Shown: positions 13,421-63,190 of the stretch, in pieces | Layout: every line of letters starts with the position of its first letter | Position numbering within the stretch: position 1 is the stretch's first letter | Origin: Flavobacterium sp. SUN052 | GTDB taxonomy: Bacteria > Bacteroidota > Bacteroidia > Flavobacteriales > Flavobacteriaceae | DNA length: 64,000 nt | Direction of reading: 5' to 3' | Assembly: GCF_028867935.1 (NCBI RefSeq) | Contig: NZ_JAPQNS010000014.1 | Span: 139,304-203,303, forward strand | The notes under the pieces: model-generated | Told to the model about the DNA's origin: nothing | Databases searched by the model: none | What the model saw: the letters and a program-made list of their open reading frames with translations, nothing else | Program-made: the position numbers and the translations under genes

Positions 13421-13426
13421 TTCTCC

Positions 13427-13642: not shown

Positions 13643-13701
13643 GTGTTGTTAACTAAGCGTAATCGTTGAGTTGGTAGAGCCACTCAAGCACACTATGCAG
13701 G

Positions 13702-40536: not shown

Positions 40537-40543
40537 TGAAGTT

Positions 40544-40666: not shown

Positions 40667-40744
40667 CCATTAATTGATGGTGTTTTTTGTGATTAGGTAT
40701 AGCCTATATTGTGGTGTCAGTGTCTCCGTAGTTGAGTGGGCTGA

Positions 40745-40833: not shown

Positions 40834-40874
40834 AGTGTAAGCCGAGTGTACGGGCTAGAACGAAAGTTAGAATT

Positions 40875-40903
40875 GTGCAGGCTGGGTCAAACCCAGCCCG
40901 CAC
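40875..40903. terminator. Hairpin after the 40916-41329 gene
   Basis: GTGC-A-GGCTGGG (40875-40886), loop TCAAA, CCCAGCC-C-GCAC (40892-40903): a strong GC stem with one A/C mismatch, 13 bp after the minus-strand gene's stop. No T-tract, so termination is probable but not proven. Confidence 0.6.
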
Positions 40904-40915
40904 AGAATCAAGTCA

Positions 40916-41329: not shown

Positions 41330-41335
41330 TGAAGT

Positions 41336-41378
41336 TCCCCGAAATGACACCTAGGAGCGGGGCGTTAGTAATCATTTT
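41336..41378 (-). repeat. Degenerate copy C of the leader module
   Basis: On the minus strand CGCTCCTAGGTGTCATTTCG corresponds to the GGCTCCGACGTGTTATTTCG core of copies D and E but has several changes, and the -7 box is lost (TTTCGTAA). It sits in the usual place, just ahead of ATG 41329, suggesting decay of a once-active copy after the gene joined the upstream operon. Confidence 0.6.
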
Positions 41379-41719
41379 ACGAAAACGGGGGATAAATTCG
41401 ATGATAAGCGTAAACCAGTCATGCGTTCAATCGTACTGGTCAATTCCCCGGCATTTACCCTCTCAATGACGATTTCGGTAAACTGCTCGTGGTTGATGAT
41501 GAAAAAGCTAACCTGATAGCTCTTCCCGTCCGGCTGGCATTCTACCCGAATAGATGTGAATCGGCTACCCTTCATTTTCCACTGCAACGCATTCTTTCGA
41601 TTGTCTAAGCTAAATCTGCTGGCCCTCATTTGGGCAAAGGCCAGCGGGCCGATTTGGTTGTAAACACCCTGAACGCGGGTGTTTGTCGCTCGACTCAACG
41701 GGTTGTTTGCGCGGGTCAT
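41372..41719 (-). CDS. Hypothetical protein, 115 residues
   Basis: The frame begins at ATG 41719, overlapping the stop of the upstream gene by 4 bp (ATGA). It encodes a mixed alpha/beta protein (RASRFSLDNRKNALQWKMKG, SRFTSIRVECQPDGKSYQVS, FFIINHEQFTEIVIERVNAG) with no membrane segment and no catalytic motif. It is the middle gene of the three-gene operon under promoter copy D. Family not recognised. Confidence 0.6.
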   Translation of the reverse strand: MTRANNPLSRATNTRVQGVYNQIGPLAFAQMRASRFSLDNRKNALQWKMKGSRFTSIRVECQPDGKSYQVSFFIINHEQFTEIVIERVNAGELTSTIERMTGLRLSSNLSPVFVK

Positions 41720-41994
41720 ACCTGGGCGGGTTGGCCGACAAATCGGCGGGTTTGTTGATAGCAGAAAAACAAAGTCGCTTCGATGGCTTTACCAAATAGC
41801 CAATCTGACTCATCGGGGTCGCATCGTTTGGCGGGATTTTCTAAATCGGTGGTTTCTAACCCGCGCCACATATCAGTATCTGCAAAGGGGTCGGAGAATA
41901 CAAAACCCTGCTGGCGAGCCTGGGCAATCAGGTCACGATTCAGGCGGTTGTCAATAGCCTGACGTACCGGGCAAATTGCAACAGCGTAACTCAT
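41716..41994 (-). CDS. Hypothetical protein, 92 residues
   Basis: ATG 41994 lies 6 nt after leader copy D. The product (MSYAVAICPVRQAIDNRLNR, DPFADTDMWRGLETTDLENP, LFGKAIEATLFFCYQQTRRF) is a small cytoplasmic helical protein. In this copy the frame of the leader runs to a TGA that overlaps the ATG, so the leader cannot be an N-terminal extension. First gene of the operon 41994-40916. Role unknown; the shared control with anti-restriction genes suggests an establishment role (inference). Confidence 0.6.
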   Translation of the reverse strand: MSYAVAICPVRQAIDNRLNRDLIAQARQQGFVFSDPFADTDMWRGLETTDLENPAKRCDPDESDWLFGKAIEATLFFCYQQTRRFVGQPAQV

Positions 41995-42000
41995 ATAGTT

Positions 42001-42123
42001 ACCCGAAATAACACGTCGGTGCCGCGCTTGGAGAACAGTATAAAGATAGAGCTAAAACGCCGAGTATGCAAGATATATAGCTGACTAACAGAATTTTACA
42101 CCAAACCCTACGCTCCCTTTTGT
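42001..42123 (-). promoter_or_regulatory. Promoter plus conserved leader, copy D
   Basis: Minus strand: box ACAAAAGGGAGCGTAG (42108-42123), 36 bp, TTG (42069-42071), 20 bp, TATCTTTA (from 42048), then the leader with GCGCGGCACCGACGTGTTA and TTTCGGGT to 42001, 6 nt before ATG 41994. Confidence 0.88.
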
Positions 42124-42198
42124 CAGCTTAATTCTCCTGATAAAGTGTGACGTGATTTGGACGTGTGAGTGAAGTATTTAATGAATGTGAGCGTGAAA

Positions 42199-42286
42199 GC
42201 GGGTTGTCGCCCTTCAGCGACTTCCCGCAAAAATAGGTCGCACGGCTCCGACGTCCGACGATAGGAAGGCTAGGGGTGGTGCGAAC
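42199..42286. ncRNA. Candidate structured RNA or DNA hairpin pair, copy 2
   Basis: First hairpin: GCGGG-TT-GTCGC (42199-42210), loop, GCGAC-TT-CCCGC (42217-42228), a 10-bp stem with a symmetric internal loop. Second stem: GGTCGCAC (42236-42243) with GTGCGAAC (42279-42286) enclosing CCGACGATAGGA. Compared with copy 1, stem 2 shows C-G to T-A and A-T to G-C exchanges that keep pairing, plus one mismatch. It also contains CGGCTCCGACGT, identical to the leader core but on the opposite strand. Confidence 0.42.
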
Positions 42287-42326
42287 GGTGTGCGGCCATT
42301 TCATTCAAGACCTACACTAATAAGAT

Positions 42327-42356
42327 CGTGAGAGCCGGTTTATTCCGGCTCTCACG
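42327..42356. terminator. 12-bp hairpin after the DarB-like gene
   Basis: CGTGAGAGCCGG (42327-42338), loop TTTATT, CCGGCTCTCACG (42345-42356), perfect 12-bp stem, six bases after the stop of the 1693-residue gene. Probable terminator; only a weak T-rich stretch follows on the minus strand. Confidence 0.8.
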
Positions 42357-42362
42357 ACTTGT

Positions 42363-45300
42363 CTATGCGACTTCAACTGTTTCCGGCTCCGACTCCCGTA
42401 ACATCGCGGCTTGCAGGTCAGCAATCTCGGATTCCAGTTCGGTTATCTTCAGGCTGTGGCGGAATGGCTCATTTACCTTTTGCAGAAAAGCCGCTTCGTC
42501 GGCACGGGCGCGGTTAATGCGTTGCTGACATTGAGCGGGTAAGTGGGGGGCATGGGCCACCGACTGCCGCAACGACTTGAACAGGCCAGGGCCGCTCAAT
42601 ACTTCGCCCTGCAAACTGCTTCCCCATTGATAGGTAAATACGTACTCGTTTCGTAATGTAAATACATCCTGCCGAACCTCTCCGGTCAATGTCAGCGGTA
42701 GTCCGTTGACTGTAATAACTGACTGGGGCGTTAATCTACGCTTCAACTGACCACGCATCCGGTCTAACAAATGCTGTACTGGCCCTCCAAATTTCTCGGT
42801 GTAGGTAACGCCCTCAACGACAACTTGGCTCAAATTGTATGGTAGTTCGTCTGTTGCAAAACGGGTTTTCAATATGGCTATCTCCGATTCAAGGGTCGGC
42901 AAAAGCGGCACCTGTAGCGACAAGGTACGCCGGGCGCGTTCAACCTGCATTTGAGCGTCTAAAACGCCCCGTTGCCAATTCTTACGGGCGGTCAGCAAAC
43001 GCGATAAATCGAGTTGTTTGGCGGCATATGCTAAGGCATACTGACTGCCGGATAGGGTTGCCATCATCTGCTCAAACGACATAGCCGCAAAATCATCGTC
43101 GGCTGAAATATCATTCATTCCCTCGTCGGTCAAGTGGCCTTTTAATACCTGATTGATAAACTTCTGCTTAATCGCCAACCGTCCGTAGGCAGTCGCGTCG
43201 AGCGTCCGGTCAACGCCGTAGGTCAGAATTTCAATTGGAATACACCAAACGGCGTGTAGATTACCTTGGCGGATAATACGGCCATTCCGTTGCTCAAAAT
43301 CAGTTGGGCGGTTGGGCGCGTCAAGGTGGTGAAGGGCAGCTAACCGTTCCTGCACATTTACGCCAATTCCCATGCGCTCCGACGTACCCAGCATTACCCG
43401 GATTTCACCCGTCCGCACTTTGGCAAAAACCGCTTCCCGTTTATCGGCTTCGGCGGGGCAAACCGCTACTTCATTAGCCGGAATACCTGCTACAACTAAT
43501 TTTAATTTCAGGTCGTCAAACAGGTTAAAGCGGGTGGTGCGGCATTCCGCCCCTACCGATAAACCATCGTCCTCGTCAACAAACAGGTCTAGAGGGGATT
43601 GATACACATCAGCAAAAACCAACTGAGTGCCTTTGTAGGAATCCGACTGTTGATAAAGCCGTACAATTTCCGTTGCGGCCCGGTTTAGTTTTGAACCTGG
43701 CTCGTCTTCGTTTCGGGCCGATAATAATCGAATATCAAGCGTCGCTTTCCGTGCCTGTCCGAATAGCACTAACGGTAAATGGCTGTTCTCCCGCTTCTGG
43801 CTTCCCGTCAGTTCTTCAAACCAGCGTAGCCGTTCCCGAATAGTATCTAACTCAATCTGAACGCCTTCCGTCTGCGGCAACACAATCTTGGTAAATCCAC
43901 CGTCTTTGAGAACAGGCAAAGTTTGGTCGCGCTGAAACTCGACTACATCATCATTCAGCACTACGTCAACGTGGGCGCGGTACAACTCCGATAGTTGCCG
44001 GACATTCACAAACCGGGCGAACCGCGAAACGGCTTTAAACTGGCCGGTTGCCGTCAACTCAAACGACGCGATCAGTTGCCCGAACGCTCCGGCGAACTGG
44101 TCAAACGTTGAAATCCGGGCTTCGTCTAAGCGGTCGGGGGCAATAAAGCGTAACATCGTCCACGCTTCGGCCATTGTGTTTGAGATCGGGGTTCCGGTGG
44201 CCAGCACAACCCGCCCTTGCCGGGCCTGCACCGACCGACATTTAAACATCGCGCTCAACGCATCCTCTGACCCTGCCGGGTCAATACCTTTGATGCCGCG
44301 CCGGGACGTAAAAAAGCCCAACCGTTTGTACTTGTGGCATTCGTCCAAAAACAGCGCGTCAATGCCCAATTCATCGAACGACAAGATATTATCCTTCTTT
44401 CGGTCGGCCTGCCGAAGTCGGCGGGCTTCTAATCGTAGGCGCAATTCGTTGAGCCGTTTTACCAACGATTTTTTAGACTTGTCTTGCCGGGCGGCTGCGG
44501 CAACGGCGGCTTCTACCCGGTCTATTTCCTCCTGCAAAAACGCCTGTTCGCTGGCCGGGTCGTCAGGTATCAGTTTGAGAAAACTCTGCGGAATGATAAT
44601 CCCATCGAAATGATTAGTAGCGATACGTTGCAGGAATCGTTTACGCCCGGCTGCTTCTAAATCAGACCGTTGCGGCACGTAAACGACTGCCGACGGGTAC
44701 AACAACCGCCAACTACGGGCCACGTCCTCAACCGTTGAGTTTTGCACCACAAGCAGCGGCTTACGGGCAATACCCAACCGCTTTAATTCCATCGCGCCGG
44801 TAATCATCGTATAAGTTTTGCCACTGCCTACGGCGTGGGCCAACATGGTATCCTGAATCTTGATACGTTCGACCGCCCGAAACTGGTGGTCACGCAAGGT
44901 AATCGCCGGGTTTGCATTGGGGTAATGCGGATAAGTCGGACGGGCAAAACGGCGGGGTACGTGGGTATTATAAAACCGGTTAAACGTTTCCTCAATGACC
45001 GATTCGTATTGCTCACGGGCAAAATCAACGAACAGTTCTCCTAACCGCTCCTGCGCGGCAATAGCTTGGCTCGTCGCTTCCACGTCCCGAACCGTAGCGA
45101 CGGACTGACTTCCTTCCTTCCCGTCCTGAGTAATCGTTTTGGTAATAATGACGCTCCGGCTGTTGAGGGCCGCGTCAATCAGTTGGAGGGCTGTCCGGTG
45201 CGACGTACCCAACGACTGATTCAATGACGAATAAAAGTGCGTTGGGGTATCTATTTCGTACTGTCGGCTCCGGTTGTTATAGCTGGCCGATACCTCGGGT

Positions 45301-47444
45301 AGTTGTAGCGTTGCCTGGATAAAGTTTGTTACCAATTCATCTGGCAACCAGACAGACCCCAACCCAAACGAAATTAGCGCGGGCGGAATGGTCGGCGGGA
45401 CAACCTGTTGCAAGGCATACACATTGGCCTGATAACGGGGTTCGCTGCGGGCCTTGTCCTCGGCAGTGGTCAGTTTCTGCCGAACGTTACCCGATAAATA
45501 CGCATCGCGTTCTATCAAACAGCCCGTTATTGGGTCAAGAAACGCCAAACCTGCGGATAGTAACTGTTCGGTAACGACGGCTACTGGCTGGCTCAACCAG
45601 TTTTTAATAGCGCTAAGTTGAAGCCCACCATGAAACCACATCGATAGATTTACCGCGTCGGCTACAGATTCCGCCGAAGTAGGGTAGGGGAGAGCCACGT
45701 TTACCCGCTCCCGAAAAATAGCCGCCTTTTTTAAGATAGTCTTTCGGAACGCCGAACCGCCCTTCTCTTTCTGAGGAATTTCTAACGCCTGTACCTGGGC
45801 AAAACGGGAGTCATACGATTCCAGAAACGACAATTGCCGGTTACTGGTTAGCGGGCCGAAAAATGCCGTAAACTCGTCGTATAAGGTGTTGAGATGCATT
45901 CTCAAAACGTCAACTTCCCAATCCTCCTTACCCTCGCGCTCGGCGGCTAACAGGGCGGTCAATGTCTCTTTTAGGGTTCTGTATTGCCGAATAATTGTAA
46001 GCTGGCTGTATGTCCGGCCTTTGATTCGTAGCGAACCGGGAAAACGAGCAGCTATCTGGTCTGTCGTCTTTTCTGGCTGTTGCTGCCTCTCCATATTGGC
46101 TATCAAAAAGGCTTTAGGTAGTTGGCAAATGGCCTCGGTTAATCGCGGGCTTAATTCTTCCGGGTTTTCCAGAAACAGCGTTGGCCGGTCGGCTCGGTGC
46201 AAACCACCCTTGCCCACCTCATCCGCCCAAACCATTTCCCCTAATAGTTGCCCCGGTCGCCCGGCAAAGTATTCGTTTATGTACAGGCTATTCGTTATTT
46301 CCTCTCCGTCTTGCTCTACGCGGTCCGACGTTTCGGTCCGGCTCCGAATACTGACCGTCCGCTCAAACGAATGTCCGGCAAACTGACGATTCACCCCGTC
46401 CCGCCGTTGCAGAAACAAAACATCAGTCGTTACGCTGGTATTGGTATGAGACTCAAACGCACACGATGGCAACCGGATGGCTCCAACTAATTCCGTCTCT
46501 GCCTCTCGGCTTAACCACTGCCGGAACTCCCCTCCGCTTTGGTCAAGGGTTCCCGATGACGTTATCAGGGCCACTACCCCGCCCGGCTTCACCAACCGCG
46601 CCGACCGACCAATGAAATAGTTATGAATCGGGTAAGACGACAAATCGGGGTTCTGTCGGTCATAGACACTGTATGCGCCAAACGGTACATTGCCGATAAC
46701 CAAATCAAACGAACTGTTGGCTAACTCGGCCTGCTCAAAACCGCCCACTTCGACCGTAACATCAGGATATAACAAACCCAGAATTAGCCCGGCAATAGGG
46801 TCTTTCTCAACAGCTACCCACTCACTACGGACGTTTACAGAAGGGGGCGAATAGCCCAGAAAATGACCGATACCTGCGCCCGGCTCCAACACTCGACCAC
46901 CCCTAAAACCAAATCCCTCGACGGCTTGCCAAACGGCGGTAACGATGGCCGGGGGCGTATAAAAAGCGGTCAGACACGAAGCGGCTGCGGCCTGTCGCTC
47001 ATCGGTAGTCAGCACCTCGTCCAATAAGGTAAGGTAGCGGCCACCTTCCTCAAAAGCCGATGCCAGACCACCCCAGCCGGAAAATTGCACCAATATATTT
47101 TTCTCGTCGTCGGTCCCTTCCCGGTTTTCCCCGACAAGTTGCTTGGCTAATTGAATGGCCCTAACGTTGGCCTTTATACGTTCACCTACAGGTTTAGGGT
47201 TGAACGAGTCAGCAGTTAACTGGAAGTTGCGCCCGTTTAAAGCTGGCTGTTCCTGAATAAGCGGCAAAACCACGTCTGGCCTATCGGTAAGGCTTTCGCC
47301 GATTAACGGGCGAACCGGCACAGGTTCAGGGCGGGACAGGGGCAACGTGGTATTCCCCGAAAGAAACCCAAACAGACTTAGCTGGATACTGTTGGGCGGG
47401 CTGACCTGCATACGGTCAACCGGGATATGTCGGCGTTGACGCAT
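42363..47444 (-). CDS. DarB-like methyltransferase-helicase fusion (anti-restriction / mobile-element helicase)
   Basis: A 1693-residue protein. Residues about 150-340 hold an N6-adenine methyltransferase fold (FYTPPAIVTA, motif I EPGAGIG at 187-193, motif IV NVPF at 252-255). From about 850 a SNF2/DEAD-type helicase follows with Walker A GSGKT (873-877), DECH box (1034-1037) and C-terminal motifs with GTSERMGIGVNVQERL and QRNGRIIRQGN (near 1385-1395). The C-terminal 250 residues form a coiled region. This layout is that of large plasmid and ICE proteins related to phage P1 DarB, which protects DNA from type I restriction. Whether the methyltransferase is active is uncertain: motif IV is NVPF rather than NPPF. 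ATG 47444 sits 9 nt after leader copy E. Confidence 0.85.
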   Translation of the reverse strand: MRQRRHIPVDRMQVSPPNSIQLSLFGFLSGNTTLPLSRPEPVPVRPLIGESLTDRPDVVLPLIQEQPALNGRNFQLTADSFNPKPVGERIKANVRAIQLAKQLVGENREGTDDEKNILVQFSGWGGLASAFEEGGRYLTLLDEVLTTDERQAAAASCLTAFYTPPAIVTAVWQAVEGFGFRGGRVLEPGAGIGHFLGYSPPSVNVRSEWVAVEKDPIAGLILGLLYPDVTVEVGGFEQAELANSSFDLVIGNVPFGAYSVYDRQNPDLSSYPIHNYFIGRSARLVKPGGVVALITSSGTLDQSGGEFRQWLSREAETELVGAIRLPSCAFESHTNTSVTTDVLFLQRRDGVNRQFAGHSFERTVSIRSRTETSDRVEQDGEEITNSLYINEYFAGRPGQLLGEMVWADEVGKGGLHRADRPTLFLENPEELSPRLTEAICQLPKAFLIANMERQQQPEKTTDQIAARFPGSLRIKGRTYSQLTIIRQYRTLKETLTALLAAEREGKEDWEVDVLRMHLNTLYDEFTAFFGPLTSNRQLSFLESYDSRFAQVQALEIPQKEKGGSAFRKTILKKAAIFRERVNVALPYPTSAESVADAVNLSMWFHGGLQLSAIKNWLSQPVAVVTEQLLSAGLAFLDPITGCLIERDAYLSGNVRQKLTTAEDKARSEPRYQANVYALQQVVPPTIPPALISFGLGSVWLPDELVTNFIQATLQLPEVSASYNNRSRQYEIDTPTHFYSSLNQSLGTSHRTALQLIDAALNSRSVIITKTITQDGKEGSQSVATVRDVEATSQAIAAQERLGELFVDFAREQYESVIEETFNRFYNTHVPRRFARPTYPHYPNANPAITLRDHQFRAVERIKIQDTMLAHAVGSGKTYTMITGAMELKRLGIARKPLLVVQNSTVEDVARSWRLLYPSAVVYVPQRSDLEAAGRKRFLQRIATNHFDGIIIPQSFLKLIPDDPASEQAFLQEEIDRVEAAVAAAARQDKSKKSLVKRLNELRLRLEARRLRQADRKKDNILSFDELGIDALFLDECHKYKRLGFFTSRRGIKGIDPAGSEDALSAMFKCRSVQARQGRVVLATGTPISNTMAEAWTMLRFIAPDRLDEARISTFDQFAGAFGQLIASFELTATGQFKAVSRFARFVNVRQLSELYRAHVDVVLNDDVVEFQRDQTLPVLKDGGFTKIVLPQTEGVQIELDTIRERLRWFEELTGSQKRENSHLPLVLFGQARKATLDIRLLSARNEDEPGSKLNRAATEIVRLYQQSDSYKGTQLVFADVYQSPLDLFVDEDDGLSVGAECRTTRFNLFDDLKLKLVVAGIPANEVAVCPAEADKREAVFAKVRTGEIRVMLGTSERMGIGVNVQERLAALHHLDAPNRPTDFEQRNGRIIRQGNLHAVWCIPIEILTYGVDRTLDATAYGRLAIKQKFINQVLKGHLTDEGMNDISADDDFAAMSFEQMMATLSGSQYALAYAAKQLDLSRLLTARKNWQRGVLDAQMQVERARRTLSLQVPLLPTLESEIAILKTRFATDELPYNLSQVVVEGVTYTEKFGGPVQHLLDRMRGQLKRRLTPQSVITVNGLPLTLTGEVRQDVFTLRNEYVFTYQWGSSLQGEVLSGPGLFKSLRQSVAHAPHLPAQCQQRINRARADEAAFLQKVNEPFRHSLKITELESEIADLQAAMLRESEPETVEVA

Positions 47445-47605: not shown

Positions 47606-48325
47606 TTACCTTACCCTCTCTCCCAAAATCACCTCAACCAACCGAAAGACAGTTGTCGAGGATTCCTCAGTTGCAGGGCTGCTGTGGTCGTATTGTTTAT
47701 AGAGACGTTCAGCCCGTTCGATGGCCTGGCGGATGCGCGGCTTATCGGTTTTTGGGTCAATGGATAGTAACAGGTCGAAGAAATCACTGTCAATCAGTTT
47801 GCTATCCTGACCGTCGTACCGAACGCCAAATGGCTGTAGGCACTCGTTCAGCCGGGCGTCATACTGCCGACGGTGCATGGCTCCGCCCTGGTGATCCAGA
47901 AAGTGCAGCAATAGCCAGTACTCGAACGCCTGATTAGAATAGGCTACCCAACCTGGCCCAAACAATTGCTCGGCCAGTCGGACGGCCTCGTTGAAATCCT
48001 GTGCTGGAAAGTCGTCCCGGTCAAAGACGCACCAAACCTGATCGTAGTGGCGACCTTTGGCAGCTTCTTCAGCCCGAATCTGTTCGGCCCGGCGTACTAA
48101 AGAAAGGGTATTGAAGCCGGTTCCGACCGCTTTTAGACGAATCGTAGGCTGCTCAAACTGTCGAAAATAGCTAACTTCCGTATTTACCCCCTCCGAGATA
48201 ATCAGTAAACGCAATGAGACAGCGGTTGGCAAATCGGTGCGCGTCAGCGAAAACGGTTTACGCTTTGCCAGTCGGCGTTGTTCCCGTTGTTCGGCTTCAA
48301 GAGCTGCTTTGTCCAATCGTCTCAT
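47606..48325 (-). CDS. RloB-family TOPRIM-like nuclease (AbiLii-like)
   Basis: The 239-residue protein matches RloB: EGVNTE at 45-50 (TOPRIM glutamate), VWCVFDRDDF at 97-106 with D102 and D104, and the family block YSNQAFEYWLLLHF. The C-terminus is helical. It overlaps the upstream ATPase gene by 4 bp (ATGA), so the two are co-translated. RloB with an AAA15-type ATPase forms the AbiL-like abortive-infection arrangement, in which the ATPase senses infection and the TOPRIM protein acts as the nuclease effector (family knowledge; activity here inferred). Confidence 0.85.
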   Translation of the reverse strand: MRRLDKAALEAEQREQRRLAKRKPFSLTRTDLPTAVSLRLLIISEGVNTEVSYFRQFEQPTIRLKAVGTGFNTLSLVRRAEQIRAEEAAKGRHYDQVWCVFDRDDFPAQDFNEAVRLAEQLFGPGWVAYSNQAFEYWLLLHFLDHQGGAMHRRQYDARLNECLQPFGVRYDGQDSKLIDSDFFDLLLSIDPKTDKPRIRQAIERAERLYKQYDHSSPATEESSTTVFRLVEVILGERVR

Positions 48326-49716
48326 AAAACTCCGACCGGCTCCGCTGACTGATCCTGCGTTGATTGTACCAACTGGCCAATGCCTTCTTCGTATTCGTTG
48401 AGGTAGGGTACGGCACCGTACCGGCCTTGCAGGTATTTTTCCCGGAAATCGTCGGTTTTACGTACCTGGTCGGTTTTGAAACCAGCTAATGAATACAGCG
48501 AGGAAGCACCATAGCGGTCTTTTTTGACAAACCAAATCTGATCGCGCCGGAGCAGGGGAGTGGCAGAACCCGCACCGGAAGGGCCTTCGGCGGTCATCAG
48601 GTTACTGTCGTGGGTGTTGAAAATAAGCTGGGCATGATGGGGGTTGGTGACCGGCGAATGAAACAGGCCCACGATCTTCTGTACCAGATTCGGGTGCAGC
48701 TTCGATTCCAGTTCATCAATCACTAGCACGTCGCCCTGTTGCAGCGTCTCTAAGATCGGCCCTGACAAGGCAAAGTATTTCTGGGTTCCCGACGATTCAT
48801 CTTCCATGTCAAGCTCCAGCACACCCCTCCGGTTGCCTAACGAATCATAAACCCGATGCACCGCTTTGGCCCCGCCAAAAATCAGGCCGTCTTTTTCGGT
48901 CAGGGCGGCTGTGAGTCGTTCCCGCAGGTCAGCCGGTAGGTTTCCCGGCAAGTCGCTTTCGTGTTCGATAGCCCGTACCCGAACGTCGGTAATGCCGAGG
49001 TCGGCTTCCCGCAAAAACCCCATGATGGCTCCTTTGCCGGTTGGGTGCATCACTTTACTGACCGTAAACCCTTCGTAACCTTCCTCCTGCAAACCCGAAA
49101 TGATGTTGAAGCGGCTAAGCCAGCCAAACACCCGCTGGGCCAGTACTTCGTTGAACTGAGCCGCTACCGACAGCAGCAGCGCGTCGGGGCGAATCATGCC
49201 CTCTTTGATTAGTCTGGCTCCAATTTTGAACTGACGAGGATGCACGGCATCGAATGTTTGCCCGTCACGATAGAAAATCTCGATCTCTTTCGTTTTAGGG
49301 CGAGCCAGGTCGGGCCGATAAAACAGCCATTCGGCCACTATATGATCGGGGGTAGCTGCAAAACCATACCGAAAAAGGTCGCCTTCGTGCAGAAAAACCA
49401 GTTCAAACTCCGAAGGGGCCTGTTCCGTATCAGGGTTCAGGCGGAACGGCACGACCGGGATTTTCTGCCCCGTACTGGCTGCCGACCGCAGGATAAACAG
49501 TCGCATCACGTGCATAGCCTCCACCAGCTTGCTTTTACCGGCGGCATTAGCTCCGTAAATAGCGGCTGTCCGCAACAAGCGAACCGGGCCGGTTAGGTCT
49601 CCTGCAATCAGGTTGGCTTCGGTAAGCGGGTCTTTATCATAACCTGAAGCGACCAGCGACAGCTTGGCTTCGTCGCGGAACGATTTATAGTTCTGAACGG
49701 AAAATTGTACCAACAT
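48322..49716 (-). CDS. AAA15-family ATPase, RloA/AbiLi-like
   Basis: The 464-residue ABC-like ATPase begins MLVQFSVQNYKSFRDEAKLS (the typical NYKSF start), Walker A GANAAGKS (55-62), a long helical insertion, and Walker B VLVIDELESKLHPNLV (about 328-345), then FNTHDSNLMT with the switch histidine. It is the partner of the RloB gene directly downstream. In AbiL-like systems the ATPase is the sensor/regulator. Upstream of it (49717-49840) is a short AT-rich region that may hold its promoter. Confidence 0.87.
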   Translation of the reverse strand: MLVQFSVQNYKSFRDEAKLSLVASGYDKDPLTEANLIAGDLTGPVRLLRTAAIYGANAAGKSKLVEAMHVMRLFILRSAASTGQKIPVVPFRLNPDTEQAPSEFELVFLHEGDLFRYGFAATPDHIVAEWLFYRPDLARPKTKEIEIFYRDGQTFDAVHPRQFKIGARLIKEGMIRPDALLLSVAAQFNEVLAQRVFGWLSRFNIISGLQEEGYEGFTVSKVMHPTGKGAIMGFLREADLGITDVRVRAIEHESDLPGNLPADLRERLTAALTEKDGLIFGGAKAVHRVYDSLGNRRGVLELDMEDESSGTQKYFALSGPILETLQQGDVLVIDELESKLHPNLVQKIVGLFHSPVTNPHHAQLIFNTHDSNLMTAEGPSGAGSATPLLRRDQIWFVKKDRYGASSLYSLAGFKTDQVRKTDDFREKYLQGRYGAVPYLNEYEEGIGQLVQSTQDQSAEPVGVL

Positions 49717-50786: not shown

Positions 50787-51731
50787 ATGTCTATAATAAA
50801 GGGGTATTCCCTTATTTCGACAATTATTGGACTAATTTCTAGAGTTAGCGATTTTGTCAAGCAGTATAGCCAGTCGGTTCCCTTAAGTAACCCCGACGCA
50901 GGCTGGGCAATTCTCTCATCTGCCGAGACGCGCATCCGCCGAAAAATCGAGGAAATGGGTAAGCCGCTCAAAGAATGGGATATTCAAATCAACTACGGCA
51001 TCAAAACTGGATTTAATGATGCCTTTATCGTCGATGGGGCAATTAAAGATGAGTTGATCCGCCGTGATCCGAAATCAGCTGAAATTATACGTCCCATTCT
51101 CAAAGGCCGAGATATTAAACCCTTTTATGCTGAGTTCAGCGACCGATGGGTAATTTTCACAAGAAGGGGAATAGATATAACCACTTATCCAGCAATACAC
51201 GAGTATCTGTTTGCTTTTAAAAAAAGGTTAGAACCTAAACCTGATGAATTTTTAGGTTCATGGACTGGCCGTAAAGGTGGTAAGTACAAATGGTATGAGA
51301 TTCAAGATAGTGTGGATTATTGGAGATCTTTTGACCAAGAAAAGATTGTATGGTTAGAAATATCTGACGTACCAAAGTTTTGTTTTGACGACAAAAAATT
51401 TTTCATCGAAGCCACCGCATTCTTTCTTGTTGGACATCATCTTCACTATCTGCTTTGCATTCTTAACTCAAAGCTTTCCCAATGGTATCTAGACAAAATC
51501 ACTGCTAGTACAGGAGCAGGAACTAATCGGTGGAAGAAGGTTTATCTAGAAAAGATTCCTGTTCCAGAAATATCTTATTCGGAAAATCTACAATTCAAGG
51601 AACTGGCACAACAGATAATCACGACCTCTAGTAGGGGATGTTCTATTACTCATCTTGAGGCAGAAGTGAACCATCTGATCTTCAAGAAGTATGGCATAAC
51701 TGATGAAGAGCAGCGTTACCTACTCAAATGA
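50787..51731 (+). pseudogene. Silent alternative target-recognition cassette of the methyltransferase
   Basis: A 314-codon plus-strand frame begins with 20 codons of unrelated sequence, then 44 codons identical to the methyltransferase (SDFVKQYSQS to GKPLKEW, encoded by the repeat arm at 50847-50978), then an alternative C-terminus (DIQINYGIKTGFNDAFIVDG to YLLK) about 250 residues long. That segment aligns with the expressed C-terminus in length and key blocks (RGIDITTYPAIHEYLFAFKK against RGIDIDQYPAIRRHLQQFYK) but differs in the middle, as expected for a second DNA specificity. It has no methyltransferase core of its own, so it is silent until inversion joins it to residue 861 of the gene on the other strand. 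Confidence 0.85.
50847..50978 (+). repeat. 132-bp inverted repeat, left arm
   Basis: Starts AGCGATTTTGTCAAGCAG, ends GCTCAAAGAATGG. It is the exact reverse complement of 52480-52611 as far as I can compare base by base. The first base is a codon start in both frames, so exchange anywhere within the arms preserves reading frame. Confidence 0.93.
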
Positions 51732-52479
51732 ATCCTGAAGATTTAATAAACACAATCTCAGCTTCAGTTAGATTATACATATTATAAATTTGAGCGTCCA
51801 GTTCACTTTCTAATGTGATTGTGTTAAGACATTTCTGTTTTTTCACTAAAATTTCATCAACTAAAGAACAGATTTCTTGCTCAGTCCTTGCTGTTGGTTT
51901 CTGTATATTAATTTGTTCAAAAAATATCTTTCGTAGCTCACGTCTATCCTCTCCAAGATCAGGAAAATACCCTTTAAAAATCGCTTTAAATAAGCTAGAA
52001 TTTAAAAAAGCTACGAGGTATTTTAAACGTTCACCAACGATGAAGAATGTCTTATTATTGAGGTAGTACCTTGATTCATCATATACGAAAGGTAGAAACT
52101 TGGTGATCTCAGGATAAATGATCTTAGGTTTGTCCAAGTCTTCAAAGTATGCAATATTGTCTTGTATCTCGAACCATTTATATGCACCTGGTTTCCTACC
52201 GGTAATTGCTCCATTCTGCTTTGGCAATAATTCTTTGTAAAACTGTTGTAGATGACGCCTAATAGCAGGGTATTGATCAATATCGATTCCTCTACGCGTG
52301 AAAATCAACCACTTATCAGCAAATTCAGCTTGGTACCGTTTAATGTCTCTCCCTCTAAGAATGGGACGTATAATTTCGGCTGATCCTGCGTCCTGCTGAA
52401 TCAGCTTATCCTTCGTGATTCCATCAATAATAAAGGCATTGTTGTAGCCGGTTAATACTCCCCTGTAAATATTAACATT
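50979..52479. other. Invertible specificity segment (1.5 kb)
   Basis: The DNA between the 132-bp arms carries two convergent alternative C-terminal domains: the expressed one on the minus strand (methyltransferase residues 862-1112) and the silent one on the plus strand. Their stop codons overlap by 8 bp at 51724-51731 (CTCAAATGAATCC region), so the segment is fully used. Inversion swaps one 251-residue tail for one of 250 residues. Confidence 0.85.
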
Positions 52480-55062
52480 CCATTCTTTGAGCGGCTTACC
52501 CATTTCCTCGATTTTTCGGCGGATGCGCGTCTCGGCAGATGAGAGAATTGCCCAGCCTGCGTCGGGGTTACTTAAGGGAACCGACTGGCTATACTGCTTG
52601 ACAAAATCGCTGATATTCCCCATCTGTTTCAACTCTCTTGAAAACACAACACTTTGGGTCTTGCCACCGTATGGAGCTTTTTCGACCAACAGAATATTTG
52701 TATCTACAGTGGCATCGAATACCTGAACGCCACCAAAGTCGAGTAATTGAAGCGGATTGTGCTTATCGGCCAGATATTTTCGTAGCGTTTGGCCATAACC
52801 AGCTTTCATCCACTTGTTGCTAGTGATGAAACACAAATGGCCTCCTGGCACTAAGACGTTTAGTCCTAACTCGTAGAACAACTGGTACAGATCGCCCATC
52901 CGGGTATATGTCTCATACTTCTGGTTTTCAAGAGCGGCTTTAGTATGCTCATCTAACTTCTGAATCTGTACATACGGCGGGTTGCCAACTACAATATCAA
53001 AGCCTACATTCTCGGTGACGTGCGGATTGAGCACTTCGGGGAAGTCGAGCCGCCAGTCAAAGTAGGGCAAGGATTTGGTGGGGTCCTGCCGCAGGGTTTT
53101 TAGTTTGCGAATAGTGTCGTCAACACCCTGTAACTGTTCCTGCAACGTCATGTGTAGCTTCTGCTCTTTGGCCGATACGCCAAACAGACTTGTGGCCGGC
53201 ATTTTAGCCAGCAGCTTGGCGCGGTCGAGGTTAATTTGCGCTAGCAACAGGTCAATTTTCAGGTCGCGAATATCGCGTTGGGCAGTGGCTTTGTCGCCCG
53301 AGGCCGTGAAGAAGGCGCGTTGCTTCTGGCCCAGCCGTTTGGTGAGCGTCACAATCTCCTGCTCGGCTCCAATGTTGCCACGCAACGTCCAGTCGAGGGT
53401 CAGAATCTCGTTGTCGAGCTTGCTTACCAGTGAGTTACCAACCACAATCTTATAGTCGAGGTTGGGAAGCGAGCGGGGGCGTTCTTCGTCTACGACCAGC
53501 GAGAGCCAGAACCGCAGCCGGGCAATATCTACCGCACCGCGCTCAATATCAACACCGTAGATCGAGTTCTGAATGGTATTAAGCTTAATTTCGGCGTGGT
53601 TGGTGTTGCCGGGCAGGGCCAGTTTGCACTGGTAAATCTCCTGGAGAAGCCCCATTGGAAATGCCCCCGAGCCAATGGCCGGGTCACAGATTTTCACCGA
53701 GTCGAGTAGGTTGTTGATAGCGGTGGCGTTGGCCAGTACAAAGGCGTTGGGCAGTTTGGTGTTCACAAAATCAGCGAGGTCGGCGCGGTGCTTTGGTACG
53801 TTCAGAGCTGTGTGCAGGTATTCGATCAGGCTCTCCTGACACATGTAATGCACAATGGCCTTGGGCGTATAGAACGCACCCTTGTCTTTGTTGTCTTCGA
53901 GTAGGTTTTCAAAGATGTTGCCAAGCATTTCGGGGTCAACGGCCACGTAATGGTCGTCGGGACTGTCTTCGTGTACCGTGAAGTTATAACTGTTCAGGAA
54001 GTCAAGAAAGCCACGCAGAGCCGGGTCGTCTGGGTTTTGGTCGTTATGAAACAGGCGGGCGGGCAGCGGAATCGGGTCTTCGTAGTCAGGCGCATCGCGG
54101 TCAAACAGTCCTCCGTTCAAAAACGGCACCTTCACGTGACTTCCGTCGGGCATCGTAAAGTCGTCATTATGCCGGGGGTAGTTTAAGGTCTCAAAAAAGA
54201 GTGTGCTGAGCCAGGTCGGGTAAAAGGCATCGTTGGCTCCTGCCTGGTGAAACAGATCGGTCAGGAAATTCACAGCATAGCGCGTGTTGCCATCCTGATA
54301 GGTAGTGCTACTGGCCCCAAGCCACCCTTTTTTCTGTACGAAATACAGAAACACCACCCGCCCCAGCAGTTTTTTCGACCAGTCGCGAATGGCTTTTTCG
54401 TCGTTATTAAACACTGAAGCCCGAAATGTCGAACTATTCAGGTATGTGTTTACGGCTTCGTAGTGGCGTTTATATTCTTTAAAAAACGTCTTGCTCAGAG
54501 CCTCTACCTCGAAGGTCTGCACCAGGGATGCAAAATCGAGCGTGGTTTGTTCGTATAGCTTGACCAGTCGTTCTGCGGCTGTACGGCAAGCCTGCCCCGG
54601 CCCCAGCAGGTACGTATACCGTTTTGAATGGGTGGGTCGGTCTTTAATTTCACCGTCGATGAGTGCTGTGTCTTTGGCTACAAGCGTTAGCCGCCAGGGT
54701 TGCGCCAAGTCAGGTTGTCCGTTGGCCAGCGTCGCTACAAAATTCACCAGTACCGCCTGCCCGGCTGTGAGCAACTTACGTACGTATTGCTGAATACCCA
54801 CGCGGCTTTGCTCGATACGTACCTGCGGCTGTAACCGAATCTCAAAGCACCGCAGGCTGGAGCCATCGTCGAGCGTCAGGTCAGCATAATGCTCTACCGA
54901 CTGTAGTAACTTCTGTTCGTTGGCGGTGAAGTTGGTTTGGGCCACGGCGGGCGAGTAGGCCGTGAGCCGCCCGTCGAAAATAGAACTCAGCACTTCGCGT
55001 ACGAATGTAACGCGGTCGTAAGGTAGATTCAGTACAGTTTGAAGTTGTAGTTTTCCAGGCAT
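51724..55062 (-). CDS. Class I DNA methyltransferase (Eco57I/type IIG-like) with switchable specificity domain
   Basis: The 1112-residue protein has a large N-terminal region (1-365), then a methyltransferase core: GAFYTPKAIVHYMCQESLIE, motif I CDPAIGSGAFPMGLLQEIY, and motif IV NPPYVQI (from N694), an N6-adenine methyltransferase of the Eco57I type. Residues 818-861 are encoded by the inverted repeat arm, and 862-1112 form the TaqI-like target-recognition domain that can be swapped. No PD-(D/E)XK nuclease motif is evident in the N-terminal part; cleavage may come from the PLD-helicase partner 61 bp upstream. It should methylate host sites for self-protection, with specificity depending on orientation of the segment. 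Confidence 0.88.
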   Translation of the reverse strand: MPGKLQLQTVLNLPYDRVTFVREVLSSIFDGRLTAYSPAVAQTNFTANEQKLLQSVEHYADLTLDDGSSLRCFEIRLQPQVRIEQSRVGIQQYVRKLLTAGQAVLVNFVATLANGQPDLAQPWRLTLVAKDTALIDGEIKDRPTHSKRYTYLLGPGQACRTAAERLVKLYEQTTLDFASLVQTFEVEALSKTFFKEYKRHYEAVNTYLNSSTFRASVFNNDEKAIRDWSKKLLGRVVFLYFVQKKGWLGASSTTYQDGNTRYAVNFLTDLFHQAGANDAFYPTWLSTLFFETLNYPRHNDDFTMPDGSHVKVPFLNGGLFDRDAPDYEDPIPLPARLFHNDQNPDDPALRGFLDFLNSYNFTVHEDSPDDHYVAVDPEMLGNIFENLLEDNKDKGAFYTPKAIVHYMCQESLIEYLHTALNVPKHRADLADFVNTKLPNAFVLANATAINNLLDSVKICDPAIGSGAFPMGLLQEIYQCKLALPGNTNHAEIKLNTIQNSIYGVDIERGAVDIARLRFWLSLVVDEERPRSLPNLDYKIVVGNSLVSKLDNEILTLDWTLRGNIGAEQEIVTLTKRLGQKQRAFFTASGDKATAQRDIRDLKIDLLLAQINLDRAKLLAKMPATSLFGVSAKEQKLHMTLQEQLQGVDDTIRKLKTLRQDPTKSLPYFDWRLDFPEVLNPHVTENVGFDIVVGNPPYVQIQKLDEHTKAALENQKYETYTRMGDLYQLFYELGLNVLVPGGHLCFITSNKWMKAGYGQTLRKYLADKHNPLQLLDFGGVQVFDATVDTNILLVEKAPYGGKTQSVVFSRELKQMGNISDFVKQYSQSVPLSNPDAGWAILSSAETRIRRKIEEMGKPLKEWNVNIYRGVLTGYNNAFIIDGITKDKLIQQDAGSAEIIRPILRGRDIKRYQAEFADKWLIFTRRGIDIDQYPAIRRHLQQFYKELLPKQNGAITGRKPGAYKWFEIQDNIAYFEDLDKPKIIYPEITKFLPFVYDESRYYLNNKTFFIVGERLKYLVAFLNSSLFKAIFKGYFPDLGEDRRELRKIFFEQINIQKPTARTEQEICSLVDEILVKKQKCLNTITLESELDAQIYNMYNLTEAEIVFIKSSGFI
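52480..52611 (-). repeat. 132-bp inverted repeat, right arm (within the methyltransferase gene)
   Basis: Encodes methyltransferase residues 818-861 (SDFVKQYSQSVPLSNPDAGW onward). Outside the arm the flanks differ (GGAATATC before it here, AGAGTT before the left arm), so the repeat ends are sharp. Confidence 0.93.
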
Positions 55063-59998: not shown

Positions 59999-60922
59999 CT
60001 AATCAGCATGTTCTTTAAATGGTGGGGTCGGAGCATTTTCTTTTGCCATTTCGATTACCCTTTGAAAATTTATAGGATTATCAGGAAAAAACTCAATCAA
60101 AATATTTGGAAACAATCGTTGCATTAGATCAGAATAAGTATATCCATAATCTCTGCCTTCAAGCGGTCCTGTAGCCTTTGATAAAGCATGAATTTCATCT
60201 TTAGTAATGTTACTATCTTGGAAATTTTCCTCAATAATAAATTGGCGCTGGATATCATTAGGTCTAACAAAATCAAAAACCATAGCAGCCCTTCTTTTTA
60301 CCGCAGGATCTATAGAAGATAATCGGTTAGTACACATCACTACTAAGATGGGTAAATGTTCAGTCGAAATGGTGTCAATACCTCTAATCAAAGCATTTAC
60401 GCCCGCTCGGTCTTCATGATGCATTTGTGACAGTTCCCTAGACTGCGCCAAAGCATCTGCCTCATCAATCATGAGTATAAGTGCATTTTCAATCTTTTTG
60501 CCTCTTCGTTCGATTTGTTTGCCAGCTTCCAAAATAGCGCCAAAAGCAGAGGAAATAAGTTTGGTCATTTCGCCAACAGTTCCACTACCTCTAGCTTTCA
60601 AACTTAATCTATATAAAGTGACTCCTATTTTCTCCTGCCTTGCTACGGCATCTCCAAAGCTTTCTGCAAGTGAAGTCTTTCCTGTGCCTACATCACCTGA
60701 AAAAATAAATAAAGGTGGCCTTTTACCAAATTGCTTTAATAAGTTAATTTCTTTTCCATAATGTTTCTTACTCCACTCCATTAAAAGCAGTGGGTTAAAC
60801 AAAAGTCTACTCTGCTTTATCAGGCGCGTCTTAACATCATCAAGACCAACAAGATTACCATAACGCTGTTTAGCGTCTGCGTCAGGAAATTCAATTACAG
60901 TTTCAAAAAGGTCTAAGCTCAT
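59999..60922 (-). CDS. cap6: TRIP13-like AAA+ ATPase of CBASS (Cap6)
   Basis: The 307-residue AAA+ protein has Walker A GDVGTGKT (76-83), Walker B LMIDEAD (150-156), sensor region LVVMCTNRLSSIDPAVKRRA and an arginine-finger area (RRAAMVFDFV). It follows the HORMA gene by 3 bp, which defines type III CBASS. TRIP13-type ATPases remodel the HORMA protein and switch off the nucleotidyltransferase, giving a safety brake. It is the last gene of the operon and converges with the DUF1016 gene (34-bp gap). Confidence 0.92.
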   Translation of the reverse strand: MSLDLFETVIEFPDADAKQRYGNLVGLDDVKTRLIKQSRLLFNPLLLMEWSKKHYGKEINLLKQFGKRPPLFIFSGDVGTGKTSLAESFGDAVARQEKIGVTLYRLSLKARGSGTVGEMTKLISSAFGAILEAGKQIERRGKKIENALILMIDEADALAQSRELSQMHHEDRAGVNALIRGIDTISTEHLPILVVMCTNRLSSIDPAVKRRAAMVFDFVRPNDIQRQFIIEENFQDSNITKDEIHALSKATGPLEGRDYGYTYSDLMQRLFPNILIEFFPDNPINFQRVIEMAKENAPTPPFKEHAD

Positions 60923-60925
60923 AGG

Positions 60926-61420
60926 TTATTTAATGATTCGTCTTGATATGTCGACATTTCCCGAGGAATAGGCTTTATCATATATGCTATTCAAGCCGGC
61001 TTTAGGGTCAGCCCCATCTCCCCGAGCTACTGGCAAAGAAACTATAACGTTACTTTGTTGGGCAGCGGTTAATGCGAAGAATTTATCACTTTTACAGAGG
61101 TAAGACCCCCAAGTTGCTCCTGATATATCAACCCCAATAGGAACGCGACCGGGGCTATTATCTAATCCGTTAAGTTGTGATACTTCATATGAAAGTGCCA
61201 AAATCCATTTTCCATTTTTCTTAAAACCGTATTCGATGGATTTGAAATATCCATCCTTTAATAGAAGTGCTACCTCTTCAATGTATTCGTTAATCTGCGC
61301 ATCGCTTGGTTGACCATAGAAGCGTTGAAGCTGATATAAATCTGCTGCGAATTTTGATGCTAAATATCTAGCATTGGTGATTGTAAACGTGTTTGTTTGG
61401 GAATTTGTAAGGCTTGACAT
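60926..61420 (-). CDS. cap7: Bacterial HORMA-domain protein of CBASS (Cap7)
   Basis: A frame is open from 61537, but that start lies inside the nucleotidyltransferase gene. ATG 61420 (164 residues, MSSLTNSQTNTFTITNARYL) starts 4 bp after its stop and matches the family N-terminus. The HORMA fold features are visible: FAADLYQLQRFYGQPSDAQI, EEVALLLKDGYFKSIEYGFK, KNGKWILALSYEVSQLNGLD, and a C-terminal segment (YSSGNVDISRRIIK) that may act as safety belt or closure peptide. Bacterial HORMA proteins bind phage peptides and activate the CD-NTase. Confidence 0.92.
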   Translation of the reverse strand: MSSLTNSQTNTFTITNARYLASKFAADLYQLQRFYGQPSDAQINEYIEEVALLLKDGYFKSIEYGFKKNGKWILALSYEVSQLNGLDNSPGRVPIGVDISGATWGSYLCKSDKFFALTAAQQSNVIVSLPVARGDGADPKAGLNSIYDKAYSSGNVDISRRIIK

Positions 61421-61424
61421 ATCG

Positions 61425-62393
61425 CTAAATAGTGAAAGAGGGACCAAAAAGTTTTCTCCAGCAGTTGACGGCTCGCTCTTGAGTCGTTGCGTACCTAGCC
61501 TCATGTATGGCATCCAAGGCGTTATGTGCGGCTTCAATTATTTTCATTCGATCCGAATCTGTATAGCTGGCGATAATATTATTCGTCGGATTTACAGGGT
61601 CAAATATTTCTATTACTCCAGTACTAGAAGTAGGTAGTTTAGATTTAGGATAATTATCAGAAAACGAAATCCTGTCGTTAAGTTGAGTTTTAATAATGTA
61701 AGCAAAAAATTCTTCCAACGCATATATATAATCTTTCATTATCAGTCCGTTATCCGCAAGATGCGCACAAATAAGTTCAGCCATAAAAGATTTGAATCGA
61801 AATTCATCGTCTATTCTTTTCATGTTCCTGATCCACCACTTTACTAACCGAATGGTCTGTCTATAGTCGTGAGGTTGCTCTTCCTTTCTAGCTCTAATGA
61901 ATTTTAAATGAAGAGGGATATTGGTCAAAACTCGATCGCCACTATGCTTTTTAATTAAATATCCATAGTCATTATCCTCAACGATGACTGGAGAAACGTC
62001 AACATCTAAGCCGGTTCCTCTAAAGGAAATAGTAACACAATGTGTACTTAAAACAATCTGATCTTCACTAATTCCTTTGCCTTTATAAACTTCTCTTAAG
62101 CGATCCTGCAACCATGTAAGAAGCTCATATTCTGACGGATTATTTGCTGACTTTTTGATGTAAACCGCTACATCCATGTCATTCAGTGTCTTCAAAGCTG
62201 TCCCCTTAGCTACACTACCTGAATGATACATTTTGACCAAATCATAGTCTGGATGTTCATCGATATAGGCTTTCAAATTATCCCGGAGACGATTAACTTG
62301 AGCTCTATAATCGGTAACGTAATCCCGTTTAAGATTAATTTTATCCTCAGCGTATAGATAAATAGTTCTGTGAGTGACATACTGGTCAGCCAT
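61425..62393 (-). CDS. cdnC: CD-NTase of type III CBASS (CdnC-like)
   Basis: I choose ATG 62393 (322 residues, MADQYVTHRTIYLYAEDKIN), matching the family N-terminus; an upstream ATG at 62429 adds 12 residues. The nucleotidyltransferase signature is complete: HSGSVAKGTAL (G59, S60), NDMDVAVYI (D72, D74) and the third acidic site in LDVDVSP (D132). CdnC-type enzymes make cyclic tri-adenylate, the activator of NucC, and the effector gene next to it is indeed NucC. Activation requires the HORMA partner encoded downstream. Confidence 0.93.
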   Translation of the reverse strand: MADQYVTHRTIYLYAEDKINLKRDYVTDYRAQVNRLRDNLKAYIDEHPDYDLVKMYHSGSVAKGTALKTLNDMDVAVYIKKSANNPSEYELLTWLQDRLREVYKGKGISEDQIVLSTHCVTISFRGTGLDVDVSPVIVEDNDYGYLIKKHSGDRVLTNIPLHLKFIRARKEEQPHDYRQTIRLVKWWIRNMKRIDDEFRFKSFMAELICAHLADNGLIMKDYIYALEEFFAYIIKTQLNDRISFSDNYPKSKLPTSSTGVIEIFDPVNPTNNIIASYTDSDRMKIIEAAHNALDAIHEARYATTQERAVNCWRKLFGPSFTI

Positions 62394-62458
62394 AACTAGA
62401 AGTAATTTAATAAGTGAAAAATTGGGCACATCAAGAAGGGCGCCCTTTAAGAATGTAT

Positions 62459-63190
62459 TCAGACATTTAACCAGGCGGCATAGGCACGCACATCAATCAT
62501 TGGAACAGTTGCCTGGGTTTGTAGCCGTGCTATTAACTCGAATAGAAAGGCGGTTGCTGGTTTTCCACCTTGGGTTAAACTACAACTACTTCCATCAATA
62601 GCTGTACAGAATGTACCGTGTGCTGCTACGCAACCCAGATCCAAACGCCTTTGTGAATCAGTAGTCGAAATGGAATTTTCAAGCGATGTTCCTAAGCCAG
62701 GAGTCCAATCGCTTTCAAATGTTAAGAGTCCGGCTAATATATGGGCTAAAGGTTTGGGAGGATAAGTGCCTCCAGCGTGCGGAATTGGAAGACTAGTACG
62801 ATGCAATTGACGTACACTTTCCGCCTTATCCTGGGCATAGCTAATTTGAGCAGCATTTATACTTTGTTTAGCCTCAAAGACAGCATATACACTTTCCGAT
62901 GGAACGACAGTTTGTCCTTGATATTGAAATATAAAAGGAGAATATTGACGATCAGAGATAACGATATCAATCTGATCACTAAAGTTCCCCTGGCTATCGA
63001 CCACAAAGGCTTTGTTTACTGAATAACGTTGTGGAAGGTAAGTTTTCAACATCTCCAGCCAAATACTCTCACTGGCATCGCCTTTCGTACCAGGATGGCC
63101 AAACGTTTTTCTAGCTGTAGCCAGTTTTTGTTCAATATCTGAATGAAGGCCTTCAAGTAGAACATTTAAGGACCAAGTATTATTTGCCAT
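62459..63190 (-). CDS. nucC: NucC, CBASS effector endonuclease
   Basis: The 243-residue protein matches NucC closely along its whole length: LHSDIEQKLATARKTFGHPG, TKGDASESIWLEMLKTYLPQ, SDQIDIVISDRQYSPFIF and VYAVFEAKQ, with the catalytic residues in order (D75 in QIDIV, E106 and K108 in FEAKQ) and the conserved block LHRTSLPIPHAGGTYPPKPL. NucC is a cA3-activated hexameric nuclease that destroys the cell's DNA to stop phage spread. Here it is the first gene of the operon rather than the last as in the best-studied E. coli system, so the effector would be made first. Confidence 0.95.
   Translation of the reverse strand: MANNTWSLNVLLEGLHSDIEQKLATARKTFGHPGTKGDASESIWLEMLKTYLPQRYSVNKAFVVDSQGNFSDQIDIVISDRQYSPFIFQYQGQTVVPSESVYAVFEAKQSINAAQISYAQDKAESVRQLHRTSLPIPHAGGTYPPKPLAHILAGLLTFESDWTPGLGTSLENSISTTDSQRRLDLGCVAAHGTFCTAIDGSSCSLTQGGKPATAFLFELIARLQTQATVPMIDVRAYAAWLNV

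Follow-up and report, generated by a model that had tools for sequence, protein, structure and literature searches.

Recombinase-driven inversion of hsdS is well known in type I restriction systems (PMC3090145, PMC7394358, PMC4948785). In the cod/SpnIII locus of Streptococcus pneumoniae and the shufflons of Bacteroides fragilis, inversion swaps domains between two active states and changes both specificity and methylome (PMC3090145, PMC4948785); the swapped gene encodes a separate S subunit, and the recombinases named there are of the tyrosine type (PMC3090145, PMC7096588). The BREX locus of L. rhamnosus carries a full and a partial pglX with an integrase between them and has been linked to phase variation (PMC7513527). 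Here we describe a locus in a stretch of 64,000 nucleotides from Flavobacterium sp. SUN052 (assembly GCF_028867935.1, contig NZ_JAPQNS010000014.1, positions 139,304 to 203,303 of the forward strand; hereafter the window), in which a DNA invertase is predicted to exchange the target-recognition domain (TRD) of a methyltransferase encoded beside a PLD-nuclease-like helicase. Like the type I cases, this would be an on/on domain swap that changes specificity and methylome. It differs from them in that the TRD is fused to the methyltransferase, the adjacent invertase is a serine enzyme of Mpi type, and the partner is a PLD-helicase instead of HsdR. It differs from the L. rhamnosus locus in having no linked PglZ and in a methyltransferase that scores 75.1 bits against the BREX-1 PglX model, for which the cut-off is 500 bits.

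A preliminary description of this DNA had placed the system outside type I, BREX and DISARM, and this placement is upheld. Type I was rejected on the fused TRD, the neighbouring PLD-Snf2 helicase, and the finding of no HsdS domain by a family scan that covered the 16 proteins of the region rather than the whole genome. BREX was rejected on the score given above and because the single PglZ match of the genome lies on another contig (C1; the window is on C6), and DISARM because MZB/DUF1998 has no match in the genome and DrmD reaches 160.7 bits against a cut-off of 610. The label of a less-described class is fair, but inversion of restriction specificity genes is already a known kind of switch. 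Milman, Yelin and Kishony (2023, Nucleic Acids Research) reportedly predicted gene-altering inversions genome-wide, with type II systems as a new targeted family. A literature search, which left most subscription papers and this 2023 survey uncovered and so is not proof of absence, returned no recognised description of a serine invertase switching the TRD of a PLD-helicase/methyltransferase system.

Architecture of the predicted invertible locus

The two arms of an inverted repeat in the window are identical at 132 of 132 positions (Table 1), and with mismatches allowed their inverted similarity stretches to 332 bp at 79%. When the 8.1-Mb genome was searched with the 132-bp arm, the only two matches were the arms themselves, so a chance origin is no serious alternative. 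The preliminary description had named non-identical arms as one observation that would count against it; the repeat that it reported is perfect. The spare open reading frame (ORF) and the methyltransferase ORF run tail to tail, overlap by 8 bp at 51724-51731 and both end in TGA. TaqI_C (PF12950, cut-off 26.5) is found in both, at 53.5 bits in the methyltransferase and 66.8 bits in the spare ORF, which agrees with the earlier claim of two alternative C-terminal specificity domains in this arrangement. Each arm starts at a codon boundary, in the same frame in both. From the start of the arm, the active segment (TRD A) has 295 residues and the spare segment (TRD B) 294; without the 44 residues encoded by the arm, 251 and 250 variable residues remain, and inversion of the segment in silico yields an intact methyltransferase of 1111 residues in place of the present 1112. 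Recomputation reproduced the earlier values for the residues of the right arm, the codon boundaries and the two variable lengths, and the serine recombinase gene said to lie about 100 bp from the left arm starts 95 bp from it. An invertible promoter was considered and rejected, as two tail-to-tail reading frames fill the space between the arms.

Table 1. Features of the predicted specificity switch (positions are those of the window)
Feature	Position	Strand	Remarks
Mpi-family serine DNA invertase, 200 residues	50149..50751	-	Outside the invertible segment; Mpi master-invertase family NF009949 (312.9 bits, cut-off 272); Resolvase catalytic domain
Spare ORF, 314 residues; residues 21-314 are TRD B	50787..51731	+	TaqI_C; modelled structure matches those of CamA and M.BseCI; S. 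gilvum P0001 has a near-identical segment, joined at the same residue
Left inverted-repeat arm	50847..50978	+	Codes for the opening 44 residues of the spare segment (TRD B); agrees with the right arm at 132/132 positions
Proposed crossover dinucleotide AG, left site	50847..50848	+	First two bases of codon AGC; same outer edge in 10/10 tabulated loci; exact cut is a prediction
TRD A, recognition segment presently fused	51724..52611	-	Residues 818-1112; relative is free ORF P0121 in S. gilvum
Probable N6-adenine methyltransferase, 1112 residues	51724..55062	-	Eco57I, N6_Mtase, TaqI_C; GNPPY at 693-697
Right inverted-repeat arm	52480..52611	-	Methyltransferase residues 818-861
Proposed crossover dinucleotide AG, right site	52610..52611	-	Codon 818 of the methyltransferase; exact cut is a prediction
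PLD-nuclease-like/Snf2-type helicase, 1134 residues	55124..58528	-	Probable restriction partner; PLDc_2, SNF2, Helicase_C

The sequences and frames of this locus are observed directly, and the reading that we prefer, with a probability of about 0.87, is that the adjacent Mpi-family invertase switches the specificity of a two-gene restriction-modification system between two active states. The invertase would recombine a pair of inverted sites that have codon 818 (AGC) as their outer edge, and the flip would swap the fused TRD A for the spare TRD B in frame. Each orientation would then methylate a different DNA sequence, and the PLD-nuclease/helicase encoded upstream would attack DNA without the current mark, leaving a population in which both the methylation pattern and the restriction of phages are mixed. 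With its gene outside the segment, the invertase would be expressed independently of orientation; with a full-length methyltransferase made in either state, protection would never be off and would change its target, and after a flip the genome would carry unmarked sites for the new specificity. In this scheme we infer that the invertase acts here, and within one culture, that the two TRDs differ in the sequence they recognise, and that restriction is the task of the helicase.

Reciprocal arrangements, recurrence and the proposed crossover codon

Both orientations were found between species, by protein in Spirosoma gilvum and by DNA in a partial pair of Lactococcus plasmids. Protein P0001 of S. 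gilvum (1111 residues) is the same methyltransferase with the spare domain of the window fused to it; the product of the in-silico inversion is identical to it at 1064 of 1111 positions in an ungapped alignment (776/817 in the constant part, 288/294 in TRD B). The active domain of the window, TRD A, is found in S. gilvum as a free ORF (P0121, 283 residues, 90% identity). P0001 and P0121 are probably neighbours, as both lie on S. gilvum contigs of the same length (238533). The Lactococcus plasmids pJM1F and pUCCL629A are 92.8% identical across 6.3 kb of helicase and methyltransferase. A stretch of 496 bp from the active domain of one plasmid (99.2%) occupies the spare position of its partner, whose active position in turn has 535 bp of the first plasmid's spare domain (85.2%); both stretches begin at the crossover edge, and the two invertases share one protein accession. 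This points to a partial reciprocal pair in which domains have also been reshuffled, since the distal parts of the TRDs differ between the two plasmids. Proteins P0122 and P0131 have a common leader, MSHFLWV, ahead of different spare TRDs, of types A and B, an arrangement compatible with flipping. A fused TRD-B partner of spare P0122 (contig 256317) was not found among the 120 matches listed.

Recurrence was assessed in the best 80 of 544 relatives from a scan of named genomes. After 23 loci with less than 2 kb downstream were dropped, 57 remained for the association count, in which invertase homologues were called by their match to the invertase of the window (E<=1e-25), not each by a scan for the Mpi family. 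An opposite-strand recognition domain is present in seven of the 57, and each of the seven has an adjacent invertase homologue (53-99% identical to that of the window), compared with one homologue anywhere in the locus among the 50 relatives without such a domain (L097, upstream of the helicase). The exact probability of this table is 3e-8 if the loci are independent, which they are not fully. The seven are L038 (S. profusum), L040, L047 (Rufibacter), L057, L079 (Porphyromonas), L098 (a metagenome-assembled genome labelled Akkermansia) and L112 (the complete genome of Treponema parvum). Further examples are L143 (Spirosoma), the Lactococcus plasmids L149 and L153, with invertases annotated as Mpi family, and L166 (also G545), which has an adjacent Mpi relative (60.6% identical) and a different junction. 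In L151, a replicon of Prevotella nigrescens (6767-14897), an Mpi invertase accompanies a methyltransferase and two opposite-strand partial methyltransferases that start near NPPY, possibly a three-way shuffle at a different exchange point. L105 has a weak recombinase relative (27%), under the threshold of the association count.

The arrangement appears rare but recurrent. In a sample of 296 Bacteroidota genomes, 78 have a TaqI_C match at E<=1e-8, and inspection of the match table by eye gave two convergent close TaqI_C pairs, in S. profusum (the centre of the sample) and in G545; weaker partners would escape this threshold. No close relative of the window methyltransferase was found in the plasmid and phage collections searched, where the matches are less than 60% identical in 304 of 304 plasmid and 30 of 30 phage records. 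TaqI_C-type domains that stand free, some 300-380 residues long, are also on record for Riemerella anatipestifer, Treponema denticola, Streptococcus mutans and Capnocytophaga granulosa (P0150, P0180, P0184 and P0210, respectively), and these may be spare cassettes of similar switches.

The site of exchange is largely shared. Ten loci were tabulated (the window, L038, L040, L047, L057, L143, L079, L098, L112 and L149). When they are aligned on AGC, the active copy equals the spare one in 10/10 from column 0 through column +12, and none of the 16 columns outside exceeds 6/10. All ten have AGC in matching frames on their two arms, for which the chance probability is 1.7e-5 if they are independent. 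With L153 as the eleventh, arm homology begins at one AGC codon in 11 of the 14 opposite-strand loci examined, across four phyla. The crossover is tentatively put at the AG of this codon because the outer edge is where the fixed flank and the moving segment meet; dyad symmetry around AG, with a mean of 3.95/10 matches at that centre and 3.7 at another, is at most suggestive. The reciprocal arrangement in S. gilvum, the partial Lactococcus pair and the in-frame, shared crossover codon support the inversion that the preliminary description had proposed.

Alternative explanations

Several observations weigh against a specificity switch of this kind. The opposite orientations are known between species, not from reads or strains of one species: S. 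gilvum counts as a separate species (its constant part agrees with the window at 776/817) and was compared by proteins only, and the adjacency of P0001 and P0121 is deduced rather than seen. S. gilvum is also alone in having a fused TRD B-methyltransferase among the 120 matches listed, the other 119 being at most 53% identical. Three of the 14 opposite-strand loci use other sites, namely L144, without an invertase in the 10.8 kb that it spans (the methyltransferase is followed by 0.8 kb before the contig ends), L166, with a junction about 80 residues later at an RPIL segment, and L151, with a junction upstream near the catalytic NPPY and two partial copies. Judged by eye, two relatives, proteins P0002 and P0010, already differ from the window at points upstream of codon 818, and domains are therefore exchanged elsewhere too; the exchange point is widely shared, not universal. 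The spare copy of L079 is split over two frames, the methyltransferase frame of L040 is interrupted near its start, and the canonical HKD aspartate is not conserved across 64 aligned helicases. A test for a single origin of the TRD-linked invertases also failed to show one supported clade.

The decayed spare copy of L079 is what would be expected of a real but frozen cassette, in which an old inversion no longer flips and the spare domain is being kept or is decaying. The assembly likewise has one orientation only, as a draft assembly would in any case. We consider a frozen cassette unlikely, since the arms are perfect over 132 bp even though arms turn over between species (98/132 to those of S. 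profusum, next to 552/600 for the 600 bp of methyltransferase just upstream), the spare ORF, invertase and methyltransferase are all open, and the near relative S. gilvum has the reciprocal arrangement. It is more improbable still that homologous recombination or gene conversion between long arms swaps the domains and that the invertase is incidental or acts elsewhere. Arms of 132 bp, or of 256 bp as in S. profusum (256/256 identical to each other), are long enough for homologous recombination, and the spare TRD A of S. gilvum is a mosaic of the kind that gene conversion produces. Over 72 residues it agrees with the active TRD B of the same species. Of the 41 residues that follow the arm (45-85), 39 match TRD B of the window and 25 its TRD A, and beyond residue 85 it matches TRD A of the window at 200/210. 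Conversion alone would, however, yield copies and not a reciprocal arrangement. It also leaves unaccounted for the sharp outer edge at the same base in 10/10 loci, the invertase in 7/7 relatives with an opposite-strand TRD against 1/50 without, and the six loci in which identity at the edge is restricted to 11-23 bp (L040 23 bp, L057 23, L149 22, L143 21, L112 13 and L153 11). Such short identity points to site-specific recombination at the edge rather than homologous recombination, although a number of the six show additional short matches farther in. Conversion may act in addition: the arms of a locus seem to evolve together, and the S. gilvum mosaic indicates that gene conversion, or domain acquisition across the arms, acts besides inversion.

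The least probable of the explanations considered is that the spare ORF is expressed as a free recognition protein acting in trans, with inversion secondary. The spare ORF of the window starts at an ATG of its own, 20 codons ahead of the arm. In L098 (14375-14405, minus strand) the spare domain follows the invertase on the same strand, and its crossover AGC is immediately preceded by AGGAGG and an ATG, so that the L098 domain may be translated as a free protein. An ATG directly before AGC is nevertheless found in only 2 of the 10 tabulated spare copies (L079 and L098), and the in-frame junction, present in 10/10 loci, is needed only for a fusion. These comparisons leave inversion by the adjacent invertase as the preferred explanation of the locus.

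The invertases themselves are related without forming one supported group. On a tree of 20 rows that includes 11 TRD-linked invertases, three changes are needed and 10 of 17 inner branches are open; even so, only 2 of 500 shuffles leave the label at least as clustered. Seventeen plasmid records have an Mpi relative at E<=1e-40, and surroundings were examined in eight, five found as invertase matches and three through methyltransferase searches. In the five records of Aureispira, Pedobacter, Parabacteroides, Desulforapulum and Campylobacter, the gene table, itself incomplete, shows no TaqI_C-annotated gene within 8-9 kb, and the invertase family is therefore not specific to such systems. Mpi of B. 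fragilis has the same family name (NF009949); the invertase described here adjoins a switch in coding sequence. A perfect 35-bp inverted repeat (50096-50130/50163-50197, 32-bp loop) spans the 3' end of the invertase gene. It was rejected as a second switch, as S. profusum keeps one arm and has an imperfect other; palindrome correction by template switching is more likely, and the repeat may form a hairpin at the transcript end.

Enzymes, genomic setting and implications

The methyltransferase matches Eco57I (144.2 bits) in addition to TaqI_C, which makes it a methyltransferase with a fused TRD of the Eco57I class, as in type IIG enzymes; its best PADLOC model is REase_MTase_IIG (543.9 bits). 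No Pfam nuclease family is found in the methyltransferase polypeptide, whose N-terminal half has no family assignment, and a nuclease-like domain sits in the neighbouring helicase gene. The profile of the methyltransferase aligns with CamA and M.BseCI over residues 688-1093 and 686-1099, the catalytic and recognition parts, for which these are the best-scoring solved structures; both are shorter (577-585 residues in the PDB chains) and are without the N-terminal half of the 1112-residue protein. A model of the spare domain, built from 30 aligned sequences (pLDDT 76, pTM 0.74), matches the same two structures in Foldseek over 281-298 columns (E 2e-11 to 3e-10, TM 0.62-0.68 on query length), and because of this extent a complete recognition half appears to be exchanged. 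The model of the full-length methyltransferase is weak (pTM 0.40), and nothing rests on it alone.

Among the 80 best relatives, 77 loci also encode a homologue of the PLD/Snf2 helicase. In an alignment of the 64 helicases with an intact N-terminus, out of 78 helicase ORFs including that of the window, the PLD histidine and lysine, GSSN, the Walker A motif GxGKT and the DE.H residues are invariant (64/64). This fits an ATP-driven PLD-type nuclease, without proving it. On the basis of gene neighbourhood, helicase and methyltransferase are presumed to be the restriction and modification halves of one system.

Over the 7.6 kb that run from the right arm to beyond the helicase, the window and S. 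profusum are 93.7% identical, compared with 80-83% at rpoB, and the system has therefore probably moved between species. The host is treated here as Spirosoma-like; in the rpoB region it shares 80-85% identity with three genomes from the Spirosoma search, S. profusum among them, and 67-76% with two genomes labelled as its own genus. That label, which is given to genomes of 2-6 Mb, appears to be mistaken. At 39502-47444, an ArdC-like antirestriction protein with a zincin domain is encoded along with a 1693-residue protein with methyltransferase and helicase matches, which we take to be a DarB-like polyvalent protein; this pair suggests that the island rides on a mobile element. Adjoining the switch at 47606-49716 is an AbiL-type defence pair, consisting of a RloB-like protein and an AAA ATPase that match AbiLii and AbiLi in PADLOC. 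On the other side, 59999-63190 encodes an AAA ATPase (59999-60922), a HORMA protein (60926-61537), a SMODS nucleotidyltransferase (61425-62429) and a DUF6602 protein (62459-63190), presumably a CBASS anti-phage operon of HORMA type.

We lean, by a narrow balance of the evidence, towards a wider reading in which the locus belongs to a cross-phylum mobile class of PLD-helicase/methyltransferase systems (Bacteroidota, Spirochaetota, Bacillota plasmids and the Akkermansia-labelled genome), where Mpi-type invertases acting at one conserved crossover codon would switch specificity on/on and the arms would feed mosaic evolution of the TRDs. The common crossover codon may serve as a marker for finding further loci in genome surveys. 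If the proposed switch operates, bacteria far from the well-studied type I cases would flip one recognition domain by means of a serine invertase and keep their protection. It would offer a simple two-state system for studying how cells survive a sudden change of specificity with their own genome unmarked, and would let one ask whether populations of mixed specificity hold phages back better and whether gene expression follows each methylome.

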